Of a stretch of DNA of 42,277 nt, positions 1 through 23,378 are shown in pieces. How positions within the stretch are numbered: position 1 is the stretch's first letter; each line of letters opens with the position of its first letter. The notes below the pieces were generated by a model. It was given only the letters and a program-made list of their open reading frames with translations, searched no databases and was not told the origin of the DNA. The translations under genes were made by a program, and so were the position numbers. The DNA is from Acidobacteriota bacterium. GTDB lineage: Bacteria; Acidobacteriota; Terriglobia; Terriglobales; Acidobacteriaceae. The stretch covers positions 1 through 42,277 of the forward strand of contig JAGWSG010000209.1 of the NCBI GenBank assembly GCA_028876335.1, in the 5' to 3' direction.

Positions 1-1
1 A

Positions 2-115
2 GGAGCGAAGACGGATTACATCGAACCCGGAAGCCAGTGGGAGAACGGCATCTCCACCACCCCCGACTGCGACTATCGATCAACAAAGATAGCCGCGCTA
101 CACTAACAAGGAATC
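2..115 (+). pseudogene. IS3-family transposase (OrfB) remnant, truncated at both ends
   Basis: The frame starting at base 2 is open until a TAA at 113-115 and reads TDYIEPGSQWENG in its first part. This closely resembles the conserved YIEPGSPWENG stretch of the integrase (rve, DDE) core of IS3-family OrfB proteins, just before the catalytic Glu region. After WENG the expected ESF-x-x-x-LRDE continuation is missing in all three frames, so similarity stops abruptly near base 50. Only the motif supports the call. The piece is either a decayed insertion-sequence end or a remnant left by a deletion; the rest of the element may lie left of the window. It borders the damaged exopolysaccharide locus. 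Confidence 0.45.
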
Positions 116-295
116 TGGTGCAAAAGATCGGGCAGACCACATCGTCCTTGCGATATGTTGAATGTTCTCTTGACGCATTCAAGGAAGATCCGCTTTGTTC
201 TCAGCCTTAATGAAGAAGAACTGAGGGCGTGACATCAAAGGCCGTTAAATAGGCCCGGCTATTCCAACCATATTGGTACAGTTAAAGTGAGTTAT
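116..295. other. Non-coding stretch downstream of the chain-length/kinase gene
   Basis: I see no convincing gene here. It lies between the transposase remnant and the stop codon of the minus-strand kinase gene. A short imperfect inverted repeat around 250-265 (AATAG and CTATT arms) could contribute to transcription termination but has no clear T tract. Confidence 0.3.
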
Positions 296-2656
296 CTATT
301 GCTCGCGCTCACCATAGTATTCATAGTATTTCCGGCCGTAGTAGTCTGAATACTCAGGGGCTTTGTAATCGACCGCGTTTACCACCACCCCTAGCAGATT
401 TGTCCCAGCTCTATCGAGCAAATCAATGCATCGCTGCACCACGTGCTTCTTCGCGCCGCCGTATCTCAATATCAGAATCGTCGCGTCCGCAAGCCTGCCA
501 ATCATAGATGAATCCGTGACTGCAAGTACGGGAGGAGTATCAATAACTATGAAGTCGTAGTCCCTTCGGGCCTCTGCGAGAAGTACTTCCATTTCCTTCG
601 ACCCGAGAAGTTCCGAGGGAAGCGGTGGGACAGGGCCGGAAGTGAGGATGTTGAGATTTGGTAGTTCCTGCCACTCGATAATTGCCTCTGCGGCCGAGGC
701 CTTGCCAGACAGCACCGACGATAAGCCAATACCCTTTCCAATTTTGAATCGCAGATGTACGGAAGGTCTGCGCAGATCGGCATCAATCAACAAGACCTTT
801 GCACCATTCAAGGCAAATGTGATTGCCACAAGGGTAGAGATGGAGCTCTTACCTTCAGTCGGCCTCGTACTCGTTATCATGAGAACTTTTGGTGGAGCTC
901 CGGGACTGGAAAGAAGGACAGACGTTCGCATACCCCTCAAAGCCTCCGCGACACGAGACCACGATGTCGACCCGCGTGCAACAGCTGCTTCTTTGAAGGC
1001 TGAGGGCAGAAGTTGTTCTGTGTCGACTGCCGGGATTGCTGCCAGCAATGGCAGCTGCAGTGACTGCTCGATGTCAGACATGGTTTTCAGGTTCGTATCA
1101 ATTGCTTCCAAAAGCAAAGCGAGTCCGAGACCGAGGAATAGGCCAATCCCCACCCCTGCAGCTTCATTCATGCGGGTTCGCGGATGGCTGGGAAAAGACG
1201 GTATATCGGCACTATCCACAATATGAATTGATTTGGAATGCAAGCCGGCCATTATGCCTGCTTCCTGTAGCCTTTCCTGCAACCCGTCGTAAAGCAAACG
1301 ATTGGTTTCGTAGTCGCGGCTGGCCAATTGATATTGCATGGCCTTCTCGCCTTTACCGAATGCATTTTGTTCTCTTGCATCCAGTGCACTCTTTACCATC
1401 TGTGCATTGATCTTTGCCGCTTCATATTCTTTTTCAGCGCGCTCGATCTCTGACCTCTTACTGAACTTGAGGGTGCGTTCCTGCTCATCAATCTGCGCCT
1501 TGAGCGACTTGAGCTGAGGATATGCCGAGCCATATGTTTGCGACATCGCAGCATATTGACGCTTCAGCTGTGCGAGATTCTGCTTCACAGCCTGCAACGC
1601 AGGCGACTGACCCGATAAGGCATCGATCGTGCCGGGAGATGCACTCCTGACGGCACGTAATCTTGATTCCTTCAAGAGCAGATCGACTTCCGCATCGGCA
1701 TACTGCTTATTAAGCTCTTCAAGGTTCGCTAAAGTCACGCTATGTGTCTGATCGATACCATAGATGCCAATGTCTCTTTGCAGTGCCACGATACGCGCCT
1801 GGCTCTTTTCAAGATTCTGCTTAAGACCAACGATCTGTGTATTAAGCCAGCCTGATATCTTCGCTGTAGCGTTATAGCTATCGCGGAAGGAATGCTCAAT
1901 ATAGCGATCAATGAGTGTGTTTACAATAAGGCTCGCCAGGGCTGGGCGACGCGAGGTTGCTGAAATGCTAATAATTGCCGTGTGGCCCAAACGCTGTACG
2001 TACAAACCGCTGAGAAACTTGTCTACCAGTAATTGACGAACTCTAGGCTGGGAAAGGTCCCATGGCTTTCCATCCTGCAATTTGAGAAAATCGGGATTCG
2101 ACTCCAGCCTAAGAGCTTTAATGGTCTCAAGAGCAAGCGTGGAACTTTTTAGGATTTCGCTTTCAGTGTCAAGCTTTTCACTGTCGTCCCCACCGCCAAA
2201 ATCCTGAACCTGTTCAAGACGGAATTGTGCAGACATATCTTCTGAGACTTCAATATTGGCTGTTGCCGTATATAGCTTTGGAAGGACAATATTCACCGCG
2301 ATGCCTACTCCCAACCCTGCCACCGTGAATACGAGAATGATCCATGCACGCTTCTTCAGGAACTGGAGGAATCGTGAAACCGCCTCACCCTCTGAAGATC
2401 CGTCCAAAAGCAGATCTGGCACAAATAAGGCCGGGCACTCCAGTGTGAGGCTGCTTGAATCTGTAAGGTCGCCATAGTGGAGCATGAAATGACGCCCTCT
2501 CTTGTGTGGATCCTCGTAGATGTGATCGATTCGATTGGTATTGAAAAGGGAGGAGCGCCGTTTGATTCCAAGTACTTCATAGCCTTTAGCCAGCAAAAAC
2601 TCCGCCAGGTATGAGCCATCCTGTCCGGTTACACCAGTGACGAATGCGCGCTTCAA
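296..2656 (-). CDS. Chimeric protein: GDP-mannose 4,6-dehydratase N-terminus fused to Wzz/BY-kinase polysaccharide co-polymerase
   Basis: Residues 1-71 are the start of a Gmd protein: the Rossmann motif [12 protein letters not shown], then [13 protein letters not shown] and [10 protein letters not shown]. From about residue 72 the sequence becomes a Wzz-type chain-length regulator with TM1 at about 104-123, a long periplasmic coiled-coil region to about 490 and TM2 at about 497-516. A cytoplasmic BY-kinase follows, with Walker [10 protein letters not shown] near 595-603, Walker A' [10 protein letters not shown] near 621-630, Walker B FIVIDTPP near 701-708, and a C-terminal tyrosine cluster at about 768-781. 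BY-kinases of this type control length and export of exopolysaccharide and autophosphorylate the Tyr cluster. The chimera starts at a TTG preceded by AGGAG 9 bases upstream, the original gmd signal. The Gmd part lacks the catalytic region, and the kinase has lost its own start. A deletion junction near 2443 is inferred. Confidence 0.85.
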
Positions 2657-2753
2657 TCTATCTGACTCCTATACACATTGAACTGCACTTTACTCATTAT
2701 TTTTGGGCATGTATCGCTTCATGCACTTCAATTCGGAATGCCAGGAATCCCGC

Positions 2754-3680
2754 CTAGATACAGGACTTGAAGTAATCTAGACTCAACTTGAGCCCTGTCT
2801 CCAGATCAATCTTCGGCTCCCACTGGAAGAGTCTCTGCGCTTTTGAAATATCTGGTTTTCGCTGCATTGGATCGTCTTGCGGAAGAGGACGATTGACAAT
2901 CTTGCTTGAAGACCCAGTCACCCTTAGGACTGCGCGCGCACATTCCAGGATGGTCCACTCAGTGGGGTTGCCTACATTAACCGGGAAATGCTCGCCAGAA
3001 CGAGAGAGACCAATGATCCCTTCGATCTCATCGGAGACATAACAGAAGCTTCGTGTCTGGCTGCCGTCTCCATAAATAGTCAGATCCTCACCTTTCAGCG
3101 CCTGCATCATGAAATTCGAGATCACTCTTCCATCCGTCTTTTGCAGGCGAGGACCGTACGTGTTGAAGATGCGTACAAGGCGCGTATCCACGCTGTAATA
3201 CCGGTAGTAGGCCATTACCAGTGATTCGGCAAACCTTTTCGCTTCGTCATAAACCGAACGGGGACCTACCGGATTGACATTACCCCAGTAATCCTCATTT
3301 TGCGGATGCACTGATGGGTCGCCGTAGCACTCAGACGTGGAAGCATGGAGAAACTTCGCTTTATACCTGCGCGCAATGTCGAGCATGTTCTTGGTGCCAA
3401 TCGCTCCGGTCATCAAAGTTTCAATTCCAAGCCGTTGGTAATCGACCGGGCTTGCAGGAGAAGCAAAGCTAAAGACATAGTCGACCTTGCCAGCATCCAG
3501 AGGCTCGCAGATATCGTGCTCGATAAATTCGAACCGCGGCTCATTACTCAGGTGGTCAATGTTCCTCATAGACCCCGTGCAGAGATTATCCACACCAACA
3601 ACCTGATCACCTTGCTGAAGAAAATAGTCAGTCAGATGTGAGCCCAGAAATCCGGCTGCACCGGCTACCATTACACGCAT
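2754..3680 (-). CDS. uxs: UDP-glucuronate decarboxylase (UDP-xylose synthase), SDR family
   Basis: It converts UDP-glucuronate to UDP-xylose in the cytoplasm, using bound NAD. The sequence shows an N-terminal Rossmann motif (VAGAAGFLGSHL), the UXS signature ASPVDYQ, TSECYGDP, the catalytic Y-x3-K as YDEAKR, and DGRVISNFM, all characteristic of bacterial UXS rather than of generic epimerases. Length is about 308 residues, normal for the family. An in-frame ATG lies 21 bases upstream, but its bases supply GGGGGAG just before the ATG at 3680, so 3680 is the preferred start. The neighbouring UDP-glucose dehydrogenase makes its substrate. The product would feed xylose-containing exopolysaccharide. 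Confidence 0.88.
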   Translation of the reverse strand: MRVMVAGAAGFLGSHLTDYFLQQGDQVVGVDNLCTGSMRNIDHLSNEPRFEFIEHDICEPLDAGKVDYVFSFASPASPVDYQRLGIETLMTGAIGTKNMLDIARRYKAKFLHASTSECYGDPSVHPQNEDYWGNVNPVGPRSVYDEAKRFAESLVMAYYRYYSVDTRLVRIFNTYGPRLQKTDGRVISNFMMQALKGEDLTIYGDGSQTRSFCYVSDEIEGIIGLSRSGEHFPVNVGNPTEWTILECARAVLRVTGSSSKIVNRPLPQDDPMQRKPDISKAQRLFQWEPKIDLETGLKLSLDYFKSCI

Positions 3681-3805
3681 ACTTGAGCTCTTCTCCCCCA
3701 TCTATGATTCAGAATAGCGATTTGCACAATCTCTAATCTCGATGCTGGTAAATCTATGCCAGTTCGCAATCAAGTGCTGAGTGCATTCAAGAACTGCTGC
3801 GCTCT

Positions 3806-5266
3806 TTAGAATCCGCGCGTAGCACCCGGCTTATAGAGTCCTGCTTGCGGATCCTGCGTGGATATTCCGGAGTGATGGATATTCGCGGGACGGCCGACAC
3901 TGAGATACGTGAATCCCATTTGCGCCATCTTTGCCGGATCGTAGAGGTTACGTCCATCCACCACAATTGGATAGCGTAAAACGGAGCGAAGTCGCTCCAG
4001 GTTGAGTTCAGCAAACTCTGGCCAGTCATTCAAAATGAGAACCGCATCCGCATCGGTCGCAGCCTCATACGGATCGGAGCAATAGCGCATCTGCGCATTG
4101 GGGGGAATCACTTCCCTGGTCCGCTCTTCCGCAGCAGGATCAAATGCGTTGACCTTCGATCCCTCATTCAAAAGTTGCCGCACAATATCAAGCGCCGGAG
4201 ACTCGCGGATATCATCGGTGCCACCCTTGAAGGCGAGACCAAGAACACAAAGTGACTTTCCCCGGAATGTCCACAACGCGGAGCGAATCTTCTGGAAGAA
4301 TCGTTGCTTCTGTTCTTCATTGATTGCCTCTACCTCCCGCAGCAGTGCAAAATCGACGCCGACAAGTTCAGCAACATTGCGGAAGGCAGCTACATCCTTT
4401 GGGAAGCAGGAGCCTCCGTATCCGACGCCGGCGCGCAGAAATTTTGGACCGATTCGTGCATCCATTCCCATACCACGAGCCACATCTTCCACATCTGCGC
4501 CGACGGCTTCGCAAATGTTCGCCACGGCATTAATAAAGGAAATCTTTGTGGCAAGAAACGCATTCGATGCATGCTTGATGATCTCAGCGGCCTTTGTGGA
4601 GGTTTGAAGAATCGGTGGCGTTTTTTGCCGACTGCAGGGCCCGGGTACTGCGTCTGACTGATCGTAATATGCACCAGTTGTCAGCGGCGCGTAGATCTTC
4701 TGCAGCAGACTCGCGGCACGCTCTGTTTGTGCGCCAATCACAATTCTGTCCGGATGAAGAAAGTCCACTACTGCGGTTCCCTCGCGCAGAAACTCGGGAT
4801 TGGAAGTTACATCAAAGTGGTCCGTGGAAATTCCATTCCTCGCAATCACGCGACAAATCCACTCGTTGGTATATACAGGAACCGTGCTTTTTTCCACGAT
4901 GACCTTATATCCGTCGATAGAGCGCGCGATCTCACTTGCCACTGCATCCACATAGGACAGATCCGCACTACCGGTCTCGCTTTGCGGCGTGCCTACCGCG
5001 ATGAAGATTGCCTCGGCTTCCTGCGTGGCGGTGCGCAAATCCGTCGTAAACCGGATGCGGCTGTTGCGATGACGCTCCAGCAACTCCGGCAGGAAGTCTT
5101 CATGAATCGGGATCCCACCCTGCTGCAGACTTTGAATCTTGGATTCGTCGTTGTCCACGCAAACCACTTTATGTCCAATCTCCGCAAAGCAGGCGGCAGC
5201 CACAAGGCCCACATAACCAGACCCAACAACCGCAATCGACACAGGGTGCTTTTCCGTTTCACTCAT
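3806..5266 (-). CDS. ugd: UDP-glucose 6-dehydrogenase
   Basis: It oxidises UDP-glucose to UDP-glucuronate with two NAD. Visible motifs are the N-terminal NAD fold GSGYVG (about 15-20), the VGTP loop, EKSTVPV, NPEFLREG (about 156-163), and the catalytic cysteine in GYGGSCFPKD (Cys about 287), followed by the C-terminal UDP-binding domain with LAFKGGTDDIRES. At 486 residues it is slightly longer than typical bacterial Ugd. A stretch of about 17 residues near 203-220 (SDAVPGPCSRQKTPP) looks like a loop insertion just before the TKAAEIIK helix. It sits directly upstream of the UXS gene in the transcription direction, so the pair gives UDP-glucose to UDP-xylose. Confidence 0.9.
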   Translation of the reverse strand: MSETEKHPVSIAVVGSGYVGLVAAACFAEIGHKVVCVDNDESKIQSLQQGGIPIHEDFLPELLERHRNSRIRFTTDLRTATQEAEAIFIAVGTPQSETGSADLSYVDAVASEIARSIDGYKVIVEKSTVPVYTNEWICRVIARNGISTDHFDVTSNPEFLREGTAVVDFLHPDRIVIGAQTERAASLLQKIYAPLTTGAYYDQSDAVPGPCSRQKTPPILQTSTKAAEIIKHASNAFLATKISFINAVANICEAVGADVEDVARGMGMDARIGPKFLRAGVGYGGSCFPKDVAAFRNVAELVGVDFALLREVEAINEEQKQRFFQKIRSALWTFRGKSLCVLGLAFKGGTDDIRESPALDIVRQLLNEGSKVNAFDPAAEERTREVIPPNAQMRYCSDPYEAATDADAVLILNDWPEFAELNLERLRSVLRYPIVVDGRNLYDPAKMAQMGFTYLSVGRPANIHHSGISTQDPQAGLYKPGATRGF

Positions 5267-5336
5267 AAGTTTCCATCCTTAATAGAGACACGAAGACGGC
5301 AGCGTTTGGATCCTTCAGCATAGACATCAAAGTTAT

Positions 5337-6122
5337 TCATCCTTCCACCGGCAGTCTGCTTCTGAAGCGCCATAACAATGGCAACAGATTGCGCGCAGAA
5401 AGATAACGCGGGACGAAACGGCGAGGAGACGCTAGACACCGCAACAACCAGCCGAGATATAGTCTGTCGACCCACATGGGAACCCTGACCTGATCTCCGC
5501 TCAAAAATGCTATTGCCGCACCAATACAGTGAATTGCGGGCAGATACTTCAAATTTAACTTAAGGTAGTGCCCAAGTCGCTCTTGCGTGCCACCGCCAAC
5601 GGTAACAAGAACATGCCTTACCTTGAGCGTGTTGATCTTTTCCAACAATACTGAATCTTCAATGGGCTCGCTATACATCGGCGCCAGATAAACACAGTCC
5701 TGAGGAACTTCGATCCCCTGTTCACGTAGCCAGGCAAGATTCTTCTCTGCACCCTCAGGCGACGCCATAATCCACAGCGTATTGCCCGGCTTCCGGACCT
5801 CTTCCCTCTTCAACAGTTCACCCAGATACTCAAGGCCAGATAACCTGCGAATTGAATCCCGCTCCATGATGTTCCAGGCAAGTACCATGAGTGCAGAGTC
5901 GGTAATCGCGAGATCCGCATCGAGCAATGCCGCACGATATGCTGCATTGTGGGCTATCTCTTTGAGGGCAGGTGCAGCCGGCACAACAAGCAGGCCACCC
6001 CTGGCGATTCGATCGATTGCGCCATTTGCATCACCAACATAAAAGTTGACGCCCAGGATTTTGCGGCGCTTGGAGTCTCGATACACCATAGGCTTCAGCG
6101 TATTTCCTTCACCGTAATGCAC
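5337..6122 (-). CDS. WecG/TagA/CpsF-family glycosyltransferase
   Basis: This family (GT26) transfers an N-acetylhexosaminuronic acid or related sugar to an undecaprenyl-linked intermediate at the inner membrane during polysaccharide assembly. The sequence shows ILGVNFYVGD at the N-terminus, LLDADLAITDSALMV, where family members normally have a PDG-type catalytic Asp motif (here TDS), then VTVGGGTQERLG and CIGAAIAFLSG. Length (261 aa) fits. The C-terminus is basic and hydrophobic (WLLRCLASPRRFVPRYL), as expected for membrane association. The listed start is a GTG with no clear ribosome site; an ATG at 6089 is an alternative. Its acceptor and donor cannot be told from sequence. Confidence 0.8.
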   Translation of the reverse strand: MHYGEGNTLKPMVYRDSKRRKILGVNFYVGDANGAIDRIARGGLLVVPAAPALKEIAHNAAYRAALLDADLAITDSALMVLAWNIMERDSIRRLSGLEYLGELLKREEVRKPGNTLWIMASPEGAEKNLAWLREQGIEVPQDCVYLAPMYSEPIEDSVLLEKINTLKVRHVLVTVGGGTQERLGHYLKLNLKYLPAIHCIGAAIAFLSGDQVRVPMWVDRLYLGWLLRCLASPRRFVPRYLSARNLLPLLWRFRSRLPVEG

Positions 6123-6140
6123 GCTTGCGACAGTCCAACC

Positions 6141-7127
6141 TCAAGCGCGAAACGTTGCCAGCATTTCCTGTTCGATCCAGTCGTAGGTCTTCTTCATTCC
6201 TTCGCGTAGACGAATCGACGGCTCCCAATTCAGGTATTCCTTGATCTTTGTGTTGTCACTATTACGGCCGTTCACTCCCTTGGGCGCGCTCAGGTTGTAG
6301 CGTCGTCCGAGCTTGATTCCCGCAATCTCTTCCACAATGTCGACAAGCTGATTGATCGTGACCAGTTCATTTGAACCAAGGTTGACGGGTTCGCGAATAT
6401 CGCTTTCCAGAATGGCGCGGGTCCCCTGGTGCAATCGTCAATGTACATGAAGCTGCGTGTCTGCTTGCCCGTTCCCCAAATCTCGATCTCATGCTTCCCG
6501 GAGTGCTTTGCCTCAAGCACCTTGCGACAGATTGCGGCAGGCGCCTTTTCGCGGCCACCATTCCAGGTTCCGAACGGCTCATAAACATTGTGATAACGCG
6601 CAACCCTGCATTGAAGACCGAAATCTTCTTCAAAATGCCGGCACATTCTTTCGCTGAAGAGCTTTTCCCAGCCATACCCGTCTTCGGGCAACGCCGGATA
6701 CGCATCTTCTTCCTTTAAAGGCACAACCTCGGCGTCCTTCGGCTTGTCACCGTTGTAAACGCATGCAGATGAGGAGTAGAAGAATCGCTCTACTCCACTG
6801 TCGCGGGCAGCAAGCAGCATATGAGTAGTCGTTAAAACACTCAACATGCAAAGCGCCTTATTATTCTCAATAAATCCCATCCCGCCCATATCCGCCGCGA
6901 GTTGGAAACAACTTTCGTGCCTTTGGCCGCTTTGTAGCAACTCTCCTTGTCCTTCAAATCAAGAATCAGATTTTCTACCTGGTCGGAAACCTGATACCAC
7001 TCGTCGTGCGGCTTGATATCTACAGCGCGAACGACTTTCACGCCCTCTTCAAGCAGCTTCTTCACCAAATGTCCGCCTATAAAACGCCCGCACCGCATAC
7101 AACAACTTTTTCACCTTGAATGTTCAT
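6141..7127 (-). pseudogene. GDP-mannose 3,5-epimerase-like gene with three one-base frameshifts
   Basis: Joining three frames restores a full SDR protein close to GDP-mannose 3,5-epimerase: MNIQGEKVVVCGAG then FIGGHL, FQLAADMGGMGFIENN, SSSACVYN, YGWEK as the Y-x3-K, the diagnostic GTWNGGREKAPAA, GKQTRSFMYIDDCT and REPVNLGS. Start ATG at 7127 has GAGGAG 11 bases upstream. Each break is one missing base in a short run: near 7085 (CC to C on the plus strand), 6906-6908 (AAAA to AAA) and 6428-6429 (GGG to GG). There are no other stops or decay, so this is either a very recent pseudogene or uncorrected homopolymer sequencing error. The intact enzyme would turn GDP-mannose into GDP-L-galactose or GDP-gulose. 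The gene begins the exopolysaccharide run. Confidence 0.8.
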
Positions 7128-7211
7128 GATTGAAAGAACTCCTCAAAATCGAGGCTGCCTTAAAAAATCGGCAGGCTGGGGGAAGTGGAACCTGGTTCTC
7201 GGCATTAAGCA

Positions 7212-7850
7212 CTAACTTAGTGCCACTTGCCGAACCGCATTGAGATCGGAAAATAAGGCAAGCAGACCAGTAGATTGAACAATATCGACCCCAAAAATGC
7301 GCTTCAGTGGGTCACAACTCAATACGATAGCAACCAAAGTGAGAATCAGGGACCTTGCATCCGGCGATTGCAATTCACCCTTCTCGATCCACGGATTCAG
7401 ATAACGCGCTACAACTTCAACCAATTCAACAAGATGCTTCTTAAACAGAGGATCCAGGTCTTGATTCAGCTCCAGAGTACTAAAGTGCAGCAAACGCAGC
7501 AGATGAGGGCTCTGCTGCAATGTGGAAACGAGGAGATCAAAAGTACAGATAAGAGCGTCGCGACCAGTTGGCGCCTCGGCCAATTTACTCAACAACTCTC
7601 CTCGTAATTGGATGCGCGAAAGTTCCGCCCCGACTACCGCCAGATACAAATCACGCTTGCGTGCGTAGTGACGATAGATGGTGACCTCATTCACCCCCGC
7701 CTCGGCCGCGATCTCTCTTGTACTCGCCCCTTCATACCCAAACTGCGCAAACAAGGACGCAGCAGTCGCCAGAATGCGCTCTTGCGCACTCGCGCGCACT
7801 GAACCATTGCGTGCGGTCATCATTGCATTTCTTGCAGGAAGCGTATTCAC
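7212..7850 (-). CDS. TetR/AcrR-family transcriptional regulator
   Basis: The N-terminal DNA-binding domain is clear: ILATAASLFAQFGYEGAS followed by the helix-turn-helix STREIAAEAGVNEVTIYRHY (about 43-62). The C-terminal ligand domain has no recognisable specificity. Length (212 aa) is normal. The listed start is a GTG without a good ribosome site; an ATG at 7823 is equally possible and would only drop a few unstructured residues. It lies 85 bases before the exopolysaccharide genes on the same strand, so control of that locus is possible but unproven. Confidence 0.85.
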   Translation of the reverse strand: MNTLPARNAMMTARNGSVRASAQERILATAASLFAQFGYEGASTREIAAEAGVNEVTIYRHYARKRDLYLAVVGAELSRIQLRGELLSKLAEAPTGRDALICTFDLLVSTLQQSPHLLRLLHFSTLELNQDLDPLFKKHLVELVEVVARYLNPWIEKGELQSPDARSLILTLVAIVLSCDPLKRIFGVDIVQSTGLLALFSDLNAVRQVALS

Positions 7851-8320: not shown

Positions 8321-9496
8321 ATGCCAGTACGGATCTACATGGATGCCAATGCCACCACCCCCTTGTTACCCGAGGTAGTGGAGGCGATGTATCCATATTG
8401 GGTGGAGAATTTCGGCAATGCTTCCTCCATCCATCAGGATGGCCAGAAAGCCCGCCAGGCAGTAGACGCCGCGCGCCATACCTTAGCCTCTTTTTTCAAT
8501 TGCAGCGAAGCTGAAGTCGTCTTTAATTCCGGTGGAACAGAGGGGGACAATACTGCCCTCTTTGGCCTGCTCCGCCCAGGCGATCACCTGATCACAACGT
8601 CCATTGAACACTCCGCCGTCTTACAGGCAGCGCAACGGCTAGCGCTGCGCGGAATCGAGGTATCTTATGTCGATCCCGAACCAAGCGGAATCATTACACC
8701 TGAGTCCATTGGAAAAGCCATCCGCCCAGAGACGCGCCTGATCAGCATGATGCTGGCAAATAACGAAACTGGCGTGCTGCAACCCGTGCAAGCAGTAGGC
8801 AGGCTTGCTACTGATCACGGAATCTTCTTCCATATCGATGCCGTTCAAGGTGCAGGTAAAGTGCAGATCGATGTCAAGCAGATCGGCTGCCACCTTCTAT
8901 CCATCAGCGCGCACAAAATGCACGGGCCAAAAGGGGTAGGTGCACTCTATGTGAGGCGAGGGACGCCGATCGAGCCTCTGCTCGTTGGCGGTAGCCATGA
9001 GCGCCGTCGCCGTGCTGGAACAGAAAATGTGCCGGGCATTGTGGGCCTTGGGAAAGCCGCAGAGCTGGCGATGAAATCGCTGGCTGATGGCACCATGGAC
9101 CAGGTCGCCGCGCTTCGTGACCGGCTGGAAAAGGGAATTCTCGCGCTCCCGGATACGGGACTAAACGGACAATTGCCCGATGGAACACCCGTGCTGCGCG
9201 CCGCCAACACCACGAATATCTGGTTCGACAATCTGGAAGGCGAGGCGCTGGTGATTGCGCTTGACCTGAAAGGCTTGGCAGTTTCCGGCGGATCAGCCTG
9301 TCACTCTGGAGCTACCGAACCCAGTCATGTGCTGATGGCTATGGGCATCAATAAGACAAGGGCACGTGCGAGTATTCGCTTTAGCCTGCTCAAGACTGTC
9401 ACCCTCGAAGAGGTTGATCGTGTTTTGCAGATTATTCCAGAAGCGGTCGCAAAGCTGCGCTCCATTTCTCCCGCAATGGCTGGAACTTTGGGCTAA
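8321..9496 (+). CDS. Cysteine desulfurase (NifS/IscS class)
   Basis: This PLP enzyme removes sulfur from cysteine as an enzyme-bound persulfide for thiolation or Fe-S assembly. From the ATG at 8321 it begins MPVRIYMDANATTPL as the family does. It shows GGTEGDN, the His of SIEHSAV, the PLP lysine in SAHKMHGPKG (about Lys199) and the persulfide cysteine in SGGSACHSG (about Cys327). A GTG 48 bases upstream gives an N-terminal extension without family support. The next gene, 57 bases downstream, is the tRNA 2-thiouridylase mnmA. This arrangement resembles the dedicated desulfurase-MnmA pairs of other bacteria (YrvO-MnmA in Bacillus), so sulfur donation to MnmA is the inferred main role. Confidence 0.9.
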   Translation: MPVRIYMDANATTPLLPEVVEAMYPYWVENFGNASSIHQDGQKARQAVDAARHTLASFFNCSEAEVVFNSGGTEGDNTALFGLLRPGDHLITTSIEHSAVLQAAQRLALRGIEVSYVDPEPSGIITPESIGKAIRPETRLISMMLANNETGVLQPVQAVGRLATDHGIFFHIDAVQGAGKVQIDVKQIGCHLLSISAHKMHGPKGVGALYVRRGTPIEPLLVGGSHERRRRAGTENVPGIVGLGKAAELAMKSLADGTMDQVAALRDRLEKGILALPDTGLNGQLPDGTPVLRAANTTNIWFDNLEGEALVIALDLKGLAVSGGSACHSGATEPSHVLMAMGINKTRARASIRFSLLKTVTLEEVDRVLQIIPEAVAKLRSISPAMAGTLG

Positions 9497-15197: not shown

Positions 15198-15623
15198 TCA
15201 GCCTCGGCTGTCGAGAATTTCCTTTGCCACTGCGTCCAGCATTCCATTCAGGAACTGTGTAGACTCTGGTGCGGAATAACGGCGGGCTATTTCGAGCGCT
15301 TCATTGATTACCACCGGAAACGGGGTGCCGCGATAACCAAGCATCTCGCCCACGGACATCCGAAGCAGGTTTCGGTCCACTGCCGCCATGCGCTCCAACC
15401 GCCAGTGCTTCGAGTGCGCAGTGATCAGATTGTCAATCTTTTCCTGGTTTGCAATCGCAACGCGAAACAAATCGTCCGCAAAGCCGCGCGTTTCTGCATC
15501 CGTCTTATCCGCCGCCTGCCAGAAGGTTTTCAGCACCTCATCCGGTGTCTGCTTGCCCATCTCCATCTGGAAAAGCATCTGCATTGCCAGCTCACGGCCT
15601 TTTCGCCGTGTACCCGCGGTCAA
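15198..15623 (-). CDS. nusB: Transcription antitermination factor NusB
   Basis: NusB binds boxA RNA with NusE (S10) to promote rRNA antitermination. The 141-residue all-helical sequence begins TRRKGRELAMQMLFQMEMG and contains HWRLERMAAVDRNLLRMSVGEML and PVVINEALEIARRYS, the conserved NusB core. It starts at a TTG overlapping the stop of the upstream gene (TTGA), so translation is probably coupled to the lumazine synthase fusion. The ribH-nusB order is common in bacteria. Confidence 0.92.
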   Translation of the reverse strand: MTAGTRRKGRELAMQMLFQMEMGKQTPDEVLKTFWQAADKTDAETRGFADDLFRVAIANQEKIDNLITAHSKHWRLERMAAVDRNLLRMSVGEMLGYRGTPFPVVINEALEIARRYSAPESTQFLNGMLDAVAKEILDSRG

Positions 15624-16534
15624 GCAGCTCCGCCCTTCGTCAATTTCCGATTCAGACTTACCATCTCAATTGCTGCCACGGCCGCCTCAAATCCCTTGTT
15701 TCCTGCCTTAATGCCCGCACGATTCAATGCCTGTTCAAGCGTTTCGCACGTGAGCACTCCAAACGCATGCGGGATTCCTGTCTCCTGCTGGCTCTGTCCG
15801 ATGCCCCGGGAAACCTCGTTGTAGATCGCTTCGTAGTGCGCCGTGTCACCTCGCAACAAACAACCCAGAGTCACAATTGCATCCACCTCGCCTGCGTCGG
15901 CAATCGTACGCGCCGCAGCAGGAATTTCCCACGCCCCGGGTACTCGCGCAACTTCGATCGATTCACGCTTGGCTCCGCTGCGAATTAGAGCATCCAATGC
16001 CCCTTCCAGCAACCGATCCGTAATGACCGCATTCCAGCGCGCCACCACAATCGCAAATTTCATTCCCTCCGCCGACAGATCGCCCTCAACAGCGTGTGGC
16101 TTGCCTTTCAGCGGATCGGTCCAGGCCCAGAAACTAAACCGGAATCCAGGCTCAGGTTCCACTTCAAAAATACGCGATTTCCAATTGGTTTCTCTGATTG
16201 CGAATAAGCGCAGAACTGCTTCGTCACCTGCATTGGATTTAAGCCAGCGTTCGGCAGCCTGATAGACAGCATCCAAATCGGTGACTTCAATCAGCACATC
16301 AGCTGTATCAGGGAAATTTCCGTCAACGAATTCAATTTGAGCAAATGGTGCGGTGAATACCGCACCTCGACTATCAGGCTCATTCCAGCCTTTCCCTGGG
16401 GGAAAGCCCAGCGCAGCAAAGAAGCTTGACAGGCGCGCATACGCATCTGATGTACGCGTTGGGCGAAGGAAGGAAATGCTCTTGATCATCACTTTGATTT
16501 TATCGTGCAGGGTCACTTCCGAACGACAAGACAA
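15620..16534 (-). CDS. ribH: VOC (glyoxalase-like) domain fused to 6,7-dimethyl-8-ribityllumazine synthase
   Basis: The C-terminal half (about residue 148 on) is lumazine synthase, the penultimate riboflavin enzyme: VEGDLSAEG, KFAIVVARWNAVITDRLLEG, VPGAWEIP, GCLLRGDTAHYEA with the catalytic His, and FGVLTCETLEQAL then AGNKGFEAA. The N-terminal ~145 residues resemble a VOC/bleomycin-resistance fold (ISFLRPTRTSDAYARLSSFF, AALGFPPGKGW, IEVTDLDAVYQAAERWL, DPLKGKP). The EGDLSAEG segment normally starts RibH, so nothing of RibH is lost. A Met at 16063 would delete that segment and has an SD (GGAGG) only about two bases away, so separate translation is less likely. The first start is uncertain; Met at 16489 best fits the VOC domain. 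The function of the VOC half is unknown. Confidence 0.85.
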   Translation of the reverse strand: MSCRSEVTLHDKIKVMIKSISFLRPTRTSDAYARLSSFFAALGFPPGKGWNEPDSRGAVFTAPFAQIEFVDGNFPDTADVLIEVTDLDAVYQAAERWLKSNAGDEAVLRLFAIRETNWKSRIFEVEPEPGFRFSFWAWTDPLKGKPHAVEGDLSAEGMKFAIVVARWNAVITDRLLEGALDALIRSGAKRESIEVARVPGAWEIPAAARTIADAGEVDAIVTLGCLLRGDTAHYEAIYNEVSRGIGQSQQETGIPHAFGVLTCETLEQALNRAGIKAGNKGFEAAVAAIEMVSLNRKLTKGGAA

Positions 16535-22172: not shown

Positions 22173-23378
22173 CTAAATGCCGCCCTTGCCGATCAGTATG
22201 CCAAGCCCATACGTCACAATGCCTTCCACTGCGCCGACAATCGTCATTTCCAGTCCAGACGACCACCAGGACCGTACCGTAATAAGCGACTTGGCCGCGC
22301 CAACCGCAAAGTGCGCTACCAACGAAACAATAGCCGCCGCAATCACCGCTGGAATTCCCTGAAGAAAGAAGAACGGAATAACCGGAATGATGGCGCCTAT
22401 CGCCGTTGATAGCGCTCCGGAAACCGCCGAAACAATTGGTTTTGAAAGTGCCTCTTCGCTCGCGCCGAGACGCTCTGAGGCCAGCGCCTTCAGCAACTGC
22501 TGCGGATCGCGCGCAATGTGATCTACCACGCGCTCGGCATCTTCCTCCGGCAATCCCTTCACCTGGTAGTAGAGAGAAAGCAATTCGCGCGCCTCAGGTT
22601 GATTCAGCTCAATGGCTTCCTTCTCGCGCGCCACTTCCGCGTCGTAAATCTCGCGCTCGCTCTTGGCCGCCAGATATGCGCCTGACCCCATCGACAGCGC
22701 CGAGGCAATCATTCCCGTGATTCCAGCCAGCAATACATACTTTGAATCGCCCGCCGTTGCGCCGGAAACGCCAGATACGATGCCGAAGATCGCACCCAGT
22801 CCATCATTCACGCCGTAAATTGCGTCGCCTATCCAGGAGCCGGCCTGCTTGCGTCCGTTATCCCGCTTGGCCAGCAACTCATCCAAAACCGCCCTGGGGT
22901 CCACTTTGGGAGCACCTGCCGGCGCCTGATAGTGTCCGCGCAGCAATGACCCGAGCTCGCGATGATGCTCCTTTTCGTCCTCGATCACATGCTCGAGAAT
23001 GGCGATGGAGCCTTCGTCGCCCAGTTCCTTCAGTTGCAGGCCATAATTGGCGATATGGCGGCTCTCTTCGATCTCCAGCCGCCGCAGCGCCATGCGTACT
23101 CCGCCCGCCTTGTTAGCCAGTGAATCTGCCTCACCGCCCGGCGACCCCTTGTACTCAGGCTCGGGACCGCCCAGTTCCTTAATTCGGCTCGCCCAAAGAG
23201 CCGCATGCTCCAGCTCTGCCTGAGCCAAATGCCGCAACACGTGTGGGCGCACGGGGTCCGTATCGCGATCTGCAAGCGTCTGGTAGGTGTGGTACCCCTC
23301 CATCTCCGCTTGCCAGTTGCCTTCGAGCGCTGCAAGTATCTTTTTCAGCTTGGCACCGTTCACCACGGCCATGGGCAC
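22173..23378 (-). CDS. MbfA-like protein: ferritin-like (erythrin) domain fused to VIT1 iron/manganese transporter domain
   Basis: Residues about 10-150 form a ferritin-like helix bundle with carboxylate ligands in EGNWQAEMEGYHTY, LAQAELEHAALW, EIEESRHIANY and EDEKEHHRELG. Residues about 175-400 match the VIT1/CCC1 family: DAIYGVNDGLGAIFGIVSG, MGSGAYLAAKSEREIYDAE and several C-terminal membrane segments. This architecture is that of MbfA, an inner-membrane iron exporter protecting against iron and peroxide stress in alpha-proteobacteria. Start GTG at 23378 has AGGAG six bases upstream; ATG at 23372 is an alternative. A rhomboid gene follows closely. The exact metal is not determinable from sequence. 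Confidence 0.85.
   Translation of the reverse strand: MPMAVVNGAKLKKILAALEGNWQAEMEGYHTYQTLADRDTDPVRPHVLRHLAQAELEHAALWASRIKELGGPEPEYKGSPGGEADSLANKAGGVRMALRRLEIEESRHIANYGLQLKELGDEGSIAILEHVIEDEKEHHRELGSLLRGHYQAPAGAPKVDPRAVLDELLAKRDNGRKQAGSWIGDAIYGVNDGLGAIFGIVSGVSGATAGDSKYVLLAGITGMIASALSMGSGAYLAAKSEREIYDAEVAREKEAIELNQPEARELLSLYYQVKGLPEEDAERVVDHIARDPQQLLKALASERLGASEEALSKPIVSAVSGALSTAIGAIIPVIPFFFLQGIPAVIAAAIVSLVAHFAVGAAKSLITVRSWWSSGLEMTIVGAVEGIVTYGLGILIGKGGI

Follow-up and report, generated by a model that had tools for sequence, protein, structure and literature searches.

An in-frame fusion of a gmd fragment to a Wzz/BY-kinase gene in an Acidobacteriaceae genome, probably left by an IS-associated deletion

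The defining features of the BY-kinases are the Walker A, A′ and B motifs together with a C-terminal tyrosine cluster, as set out in PMC8394532. The Wzc-type BY-kinase/copolymerases (7nhr, 3la6) combine these features with Wzz and GNVR domains and two transmembrane (TM) segments; autophosphorylation and octamer cycling are further traits of the type. The protein described here has the same domains, segments and motifs, including the tyrosine-rich tail, and differs in having about 95 residues ahead of the conserved TM1 segment, where the Wzc-type proteins have only a short tail, and in that its own native start has probably been lost. What stands in front of the kinase is the beginning of a second enzyme, GDP-mannose dehydratase (Gmd; 1db3). 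The fusion has the first 71 residues in common with Gmd, including the GVTGQDG motif, while about four fifths of the enzyme are missing. The active-site part presumably lies within these missing four fifths; judged by what remains, the fusion cannot be an active dehydratase.

Two further described systems are relevant. In the long-term E. coli experiment, deletions adjacent to IS150, an IS3-family element, have been described (PMC11708052), and in M. tuberculosis multigene deletions have been found to create expressed chimeric proteins (PMC7671302). The IS150 case and the present one each have a deletion beside an IS3-type end, and IS3-type elements are present in this genome; the difference is that here 23–29 bp of the element are left, read from sequence alone. 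The M. tuberculosis chimeric genes resemble the fusion in having breakpoints within two genes of one locus, a frame that is kept, and an upstream start that drives the chimera. Some of those chimeras were seen at the protein level, whereas the present one is known only as DNA. By analogy, the fusion, if real, belongs with these cases of IS-associated deletion and chimeric genes.

The window (the whole stretch of DNA analysed, 42,277 nucleotides) is one whole contig of a draft genome (GCA_028876335.1). On its minus strand, positions 296–2656 form a single uninterrupted 786-codon frame, which opens with a TTG (2654–2656) and is made up of 71 Gmd codons followed by a Wzz/GNVR/BY-kinase. Pfam places GDP_Man_Dehyd (PF16363, E-value 3.6e-22) at residues 5–70, which correspond to positions 1–67 of the 332 in the profile, and Wzz (PF02706), GNVR (PF13807) and AAA_31 at residues 96–181, 446–516 and 591–717 respectively. 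Lying together in one open frame, these matches are too strong to be chance similarity, and the in-frame Gmd/Wzz-BY-kinase chimera proposed in the initial annotation is confirmed in the assembled sequence.

The genes upstream of the fusion are also on the minus strand. Directly upstream, as in several relatives (G087, G078 and others), is an open NAD-dependent epimerase/dehydratase gene at 2754–3701, to which we have assigned the name uxs. It is preceded by ugd, an open UDP-glucose/GDP-mannose dehydrogenase gene (3806–5266), an open WecG/TagA-type glycosyltransferase gene (5337–6122), and an NAD-dependent epimerase pseudogene with frameshifts (6141–7127), the homologues of which are open in G087 (locus L187) and G065 (locus L188). 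These assignments come from Pfam and from comparison of loci. The ugd homologue in one congener (G027, L150) is split by about 267 bp, at 8384–8650 and between residues 277 and 278, in what looks like an insertion. Three congeners have a TetR-type gene like the one at window 7212–7850 within their polysaccharide locus or next to it, its position differing from one to another (L147 1941–2480, L065 3535–4104, L150 9807–10004). The G+C content of the polysaccharide locus (window 1–7850) is about 0.49–0.53 by segment, compared with about 0.55–0.60 in most sampled segments of this genome. Elsewhere in the window, a minus-strand frame at 22173–23378 combines ferritin/rubrerythrin-like and VIT1 domains in one chain, and a lumazine synthase frame (15620–16534, minus) has about 156 extra N-terminal residues without a domain and is perhaps overlong.

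The Gmd fragment (codons 1–71, 2444–2656, minus) matches residues 2–71 of E. coli Gmd. The initial annotation was right in giving it about 71 residues, but the similarity runs slightly past the motif at which it was said to end, through fusion residue 71. For comparison, gmd copies were collected from 39 loci and 27 distinct ones were kept, after duplicates, short hits, and copies that ran off the end of a locus or contained a stop had been dropped. The fragment is 71–86% identical to these 27 copies, and 77% identical to the gmd on another contig of the same assembly, C208. TTG stands at the aligned start position in 13 of the 27, and is an ordinary gmd start in these relatives. An AGGAG resembling a ribosome site lies 9 nt before the TTG (2666–2670, minus), apparently inherited from gmd, so that, as had been suggested, the gmd ribosome site and start now lead into the kinase.

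The kinase part (296–2413, minus) matches the solved Wzc, CapAB and Etk kinases. Hydropathy peaks at 102–128 and 497–521 correspond to TM1 (about 104–124) and TM2 (about 498–519), with the Wzz domain between them and the kinase in the same chain; a third peak, at 606–624, falls inside the kinase domain. Walker A (residue 596), Walker A′ (622), Walker B (702) and the tyrosine-rich C-terminus are all intact, the positions being assigned with what we take to be the usual Walker patterns. The part evolves at an ordinary rate, with an end branch of 0.26 compared with 0.20–0.44 in nine relatives.

Where this part would originally have begun is less certain. Similarity to the kinase begins at residues 88, 64, 84, 93 and 85 in the five homologues aligned. 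In nine undeleted homologues, including the one on C208, an in-frame start stands 32–38 residues in front of the conserved segment that precedes TM1; the fusion keeps about 14 wzz-derived residues there. Later in-frame starts are also present in five of the nine (G087, G074, G083, G002 and G005), and for this reason the loss of the native wzz start with some 18–24 codons is probable but not proven. The earlier description of this part as a two-TM chain-length regulator and tyrosine kinase stands, while the description of it as lacking its own start holds only as a probability.

The initial annotation had gmd joined directly to wzz, and this view has to be revised. The residues at the seam, approximately 72–81, are encoded by a spacer (2414–2442, minus) that carries a 23-bp block matching the end of an IS3-type element in this genome. 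We read the order as gmd codons 1–71, an IS3-type end of 23–29 bp, and wzz from about codon 82, where the core of the spacer (2414–2436) is secure and its outer six bases would presumably also come from the element. When 2330–2560 was searched against its own genome, a 23-bp match was found at C206:8663–8685 (E-value 0.0026), plus five weaker ones. Spacer and C206 site are identical at 22 of 23 bases, and the C206 site follows, at a distance of about 50 bp, the stop codon of a transposase C-terminus in which rve_3 scores above cut-off. Transposases with rve_3, or with rve and HTH_21, are assumed here to belong to the IS3 family. With up to two mismatches the 23-mer occurs at two sites in its own genome and at none in 78 other genomes of the genus. 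A third, weaker site, with three mismatches, is on C161, in a locus in which no transposase frame was recognised; with up to three mismatches there are three sites in the whole genome and no second copy in the window.

None of 5000 random segments scored as high against the C206 site as the spacer does. A different IS end, at window 1–139, resembles the C206 site more closely (12 of 5000 random segments reach that score) than it does the spacer, to which its similarity is weak (119 of 5000). No similar end is found in the loci examined for the other two rve_3 elements of the genome, C93 and C144, the best alignments having 11–14 mismatches of 29. The C206 copy of the block has no clear outer terminus and the block itself is short. 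At the seam there are no paired inverted repeats, no target duplication and no remaining IS body; a missing paired repeat is what would be expected if only one IS end survives.

The IS end at window 1–139 (plus strand) belongs to another, apparently shortened, IS3-type element that is cut by the contig end, 156 bp beyond the stop of the kinase. Pfam found no match in the 34-residue IS remnant or in the 60-residue frame at the contig start, and the 1–139 remnant was therefore placed via its copy on C74, of which it is an exact 139-bp repeat (C74:5316–5454); both rve and HTH_21 are recognised in the C74 element. This IS end probably explains why the contig stops here.

The relatives show what the locus would have looked like before the deletion. 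In the congener G087 the order, all on one strand, is epimerase-wecG-ugd-uxs-gmd-fcl-wza-GT2-GT4-wzz/BYK, gmd and wzz being two separate, open genes. The window has epimerase-wecG-ugd-uxs-gmd′::wzz. This agrees with the proposal of an in-frame deletion within one locus, and supplies, at the level of the genus, the separate intact gmd and kinase genes that the initial annotation had recommended looking for in sister strains. The order gmd-fcl-wza-wzz is also found on one strand in G078, G074 and G020, and C208 carries uxs(tail)-gmd-fcl-wza-GT2-GT4-wzz-wzy. Measured against G087, the missing stretch would be about 5.3 kb; against C208 it would be about 5.2 kb, and against G078, G074 and G020 about 3.4 kb. 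The order does vary, gmd being apart from wzz in G009 and G002, and G083 having no gmd between uxs and wza. Next to the window's locus is a class-V aminotransferase gene that also adjoins those of G027 and G063; a tetR-like gene adjoins the G027 locus as well. With these neighbours in common, the window's locus looks like the ancestral site. There is no wza on the window contig and no wzy match in its first 12 kb, and a search of the assembly found no other piece of the window's gmd, and no close wza except on C208.

The fusion was found in one of 60 relatives, one of 80 genomes of the genus, and one of 398 genomes of the family, and each time the genome was its own; the search for the 786-residue architecture that had been suggested at the outset has thus been made, and among the genomes searched the architecture is confined to this one. 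The 398 were drawn evenly from a larger family, and the counts for the 60 and the 398 rest on the matches listed, in which a fusion would be expected among the highest-ranking. Gmd-start and kinase matches occur together in 17 of the 80 loci listed, in no case on the same strand within 600 bases. L078, which matched over residues 1–96 and was considered as a second fusion, proved to be an ordinary gmd of 363 residues. In the literature searched, mostly without subscription papers, no Gmd/BY-kinase fusion is described.

The best explanation, and one that we consider probable, is that the fusion is a real IS-associated deletion scar in an exopolysaccharide locus, the frame being kept by chance and the kinase being left with a cytoplasmic tail that is useless or mildly disruptive. 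In the ancestor, as in relatives, uxs-gmd-fcl-wza-(GT2-GT4)-wzz/BYK would have lain on one strand. An IS3-type element would then have inserted in gmd or near the start of wzz, and a deletion, its extent estimated from the relatives, would have removed the greater part of gmd together with fcl, wza and whatever glycosyltransferases lay there, almost the whole IS, and some 18–24 codons from the beginning of wzz. This would leave gmd codons 1–71, 23–29 bp of IS end and the rest of wzz, in frame by chance. Were translation to begin at the gmd start, the BY-kinase copolymerase would have a cytoplasmic stretch of about 95 residues, not about 36, in front of the conserved membrane segment; the additional residues would form an incomplete Rossmann fragment, which is unlikely to fold.

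Compatible with this explanation, and really a variant of it, is the idea that translation begins within the gmd part and yields an ordinary kinase, with the Gmd codons upstream serving in effect as a leader; we regard this as a tentative possibility. The tail before the FLQFLKKR segment (residue 96) is 95 residues from the TTG start, compared with 32–38 in the nine homologues with their chosen starts. An ATG at codon 58 would give 38 residues, which is near-native, and the kinase could then still work; GTG at codon 79 and TTG at codon 84 are further in-frame starts. A short cytoplasmic N-terminus, which is a BY-kinase trait, is absent if translation begins at the TTG but present if it begins at ATG 58. 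On the other hand, the AGGAG/TTG site of gmd is intact and is the better-looking of the two, the sequence ahead of ATG 58 being, by eye, only loosely like a ribosome site.

An assembly artefact, in which separate gmd and wzz genes were falsely joined in a metagenome-type assembly, had been raised from the beginning as the alternative, and we find it unlikely. The genome is indeed a 3.84-Mb draft in 236 contigs, 91% complete and with 2.6% estimated contamination, the locus contains repeated IS ends, at one of which the contig stops, and a related complete locus is present on C208 in the same bin. However, the longest exact run seen between the seam and the other listed sites in the assembly is 16 bp, too short for the usual k-mer join, and both sides of the seam keep the ancestral order and orientation. 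Nor is there an orphan piece of this gmd allele in the assembly, the gmd of C208 being 23% different over the fragment, and apart from the epimerase no window gene scanned looks broken, although in a set of 19 of the proteins 5 had no Pfam match.

It is worth adding that C208 was considered as the other half of a misjoin, and was rejected on the basis of protein identities of only 77% (gmd start) and 60% (wzz). Its wzz groups with that of G083 and not with the window wzz, and its first 400 bases, searched in the assembly, match only themselves. The tetranucleotide fit of C208 is 0.883, second lowest of 27 segments (others 0.863–0.966, pieces below 8 kb being left out). C208 is either a second polysaccharide locus or a foreign contig, and is not a close paralogue of the window locus.

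That the chimera is a selected new protein, in which the Gmd-derived tail, with its GxxGxxG dinucleotide motif, regulates the kinase or its oligomer, is in our view very improbable. In its favour, the reading frame continues without a break through the seam, the Gmd part has kept its similarity to the other copies and the kinase part is conserved. Against this, the fusion is a singleton among the 398 family genomes, its neighbouring genes are broken or missing, and the Gmd piece covers only 67 of 332 profile positions, the complete SDR domain with its active site and substrate-binding part being absent. Two changes in it, L5F and H29L, are at positions invariant across the 27 other copies. A point against the deletion reading, on the other hand, is that the mean pN of the piece is 0.108, compared with 0.086–0.125 in ten others (synonymous sites are saturated); there is no clear excess of amino-acid change, and decay of this piece is not demonstrated. 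AlphaFold2 gave block mean pLDDT values of 32–64 for residues 1–90, although eight of the 14 rows of the shallow input alignment were Gmd starts, compared with 76–93 for residues 571–760, falling to 67, 52 and 36 toward the end (pTM 0.42). This weak model shows no more than the lack of a confident fold for the Gmd piece. We find no evidence for a selected function, nor for the role in regulation or oligomerisation that the initial annotation had considered. Least credible of all is a working chimeric receptor, in which the half-Rossmann Gmd tail and an IS-encoded linker would give the kinase a dinucleotide- or GDP-sugar-responsive input.

Returning to the IS-associated deletion, the absence of wza and the broken epimerase point most likely to a polysaccharide locus in decay and not to a specialised one. 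Given that the branch of the kinase is ordinary and the mean divergence of the Gmd part is within range, either a recent event or continued use of the kinase is possible. A protein of this kind matches Gmd and tyrosine kinase alike, which is a warning for annotation. The chimera would be of greater importance only if it is expressed and altered. If the junction is real, it would provide a snapshot of IS activity trimming a polysaccharide cluster, in which a frame left open by chance has produced a chimeric membrane kinase.
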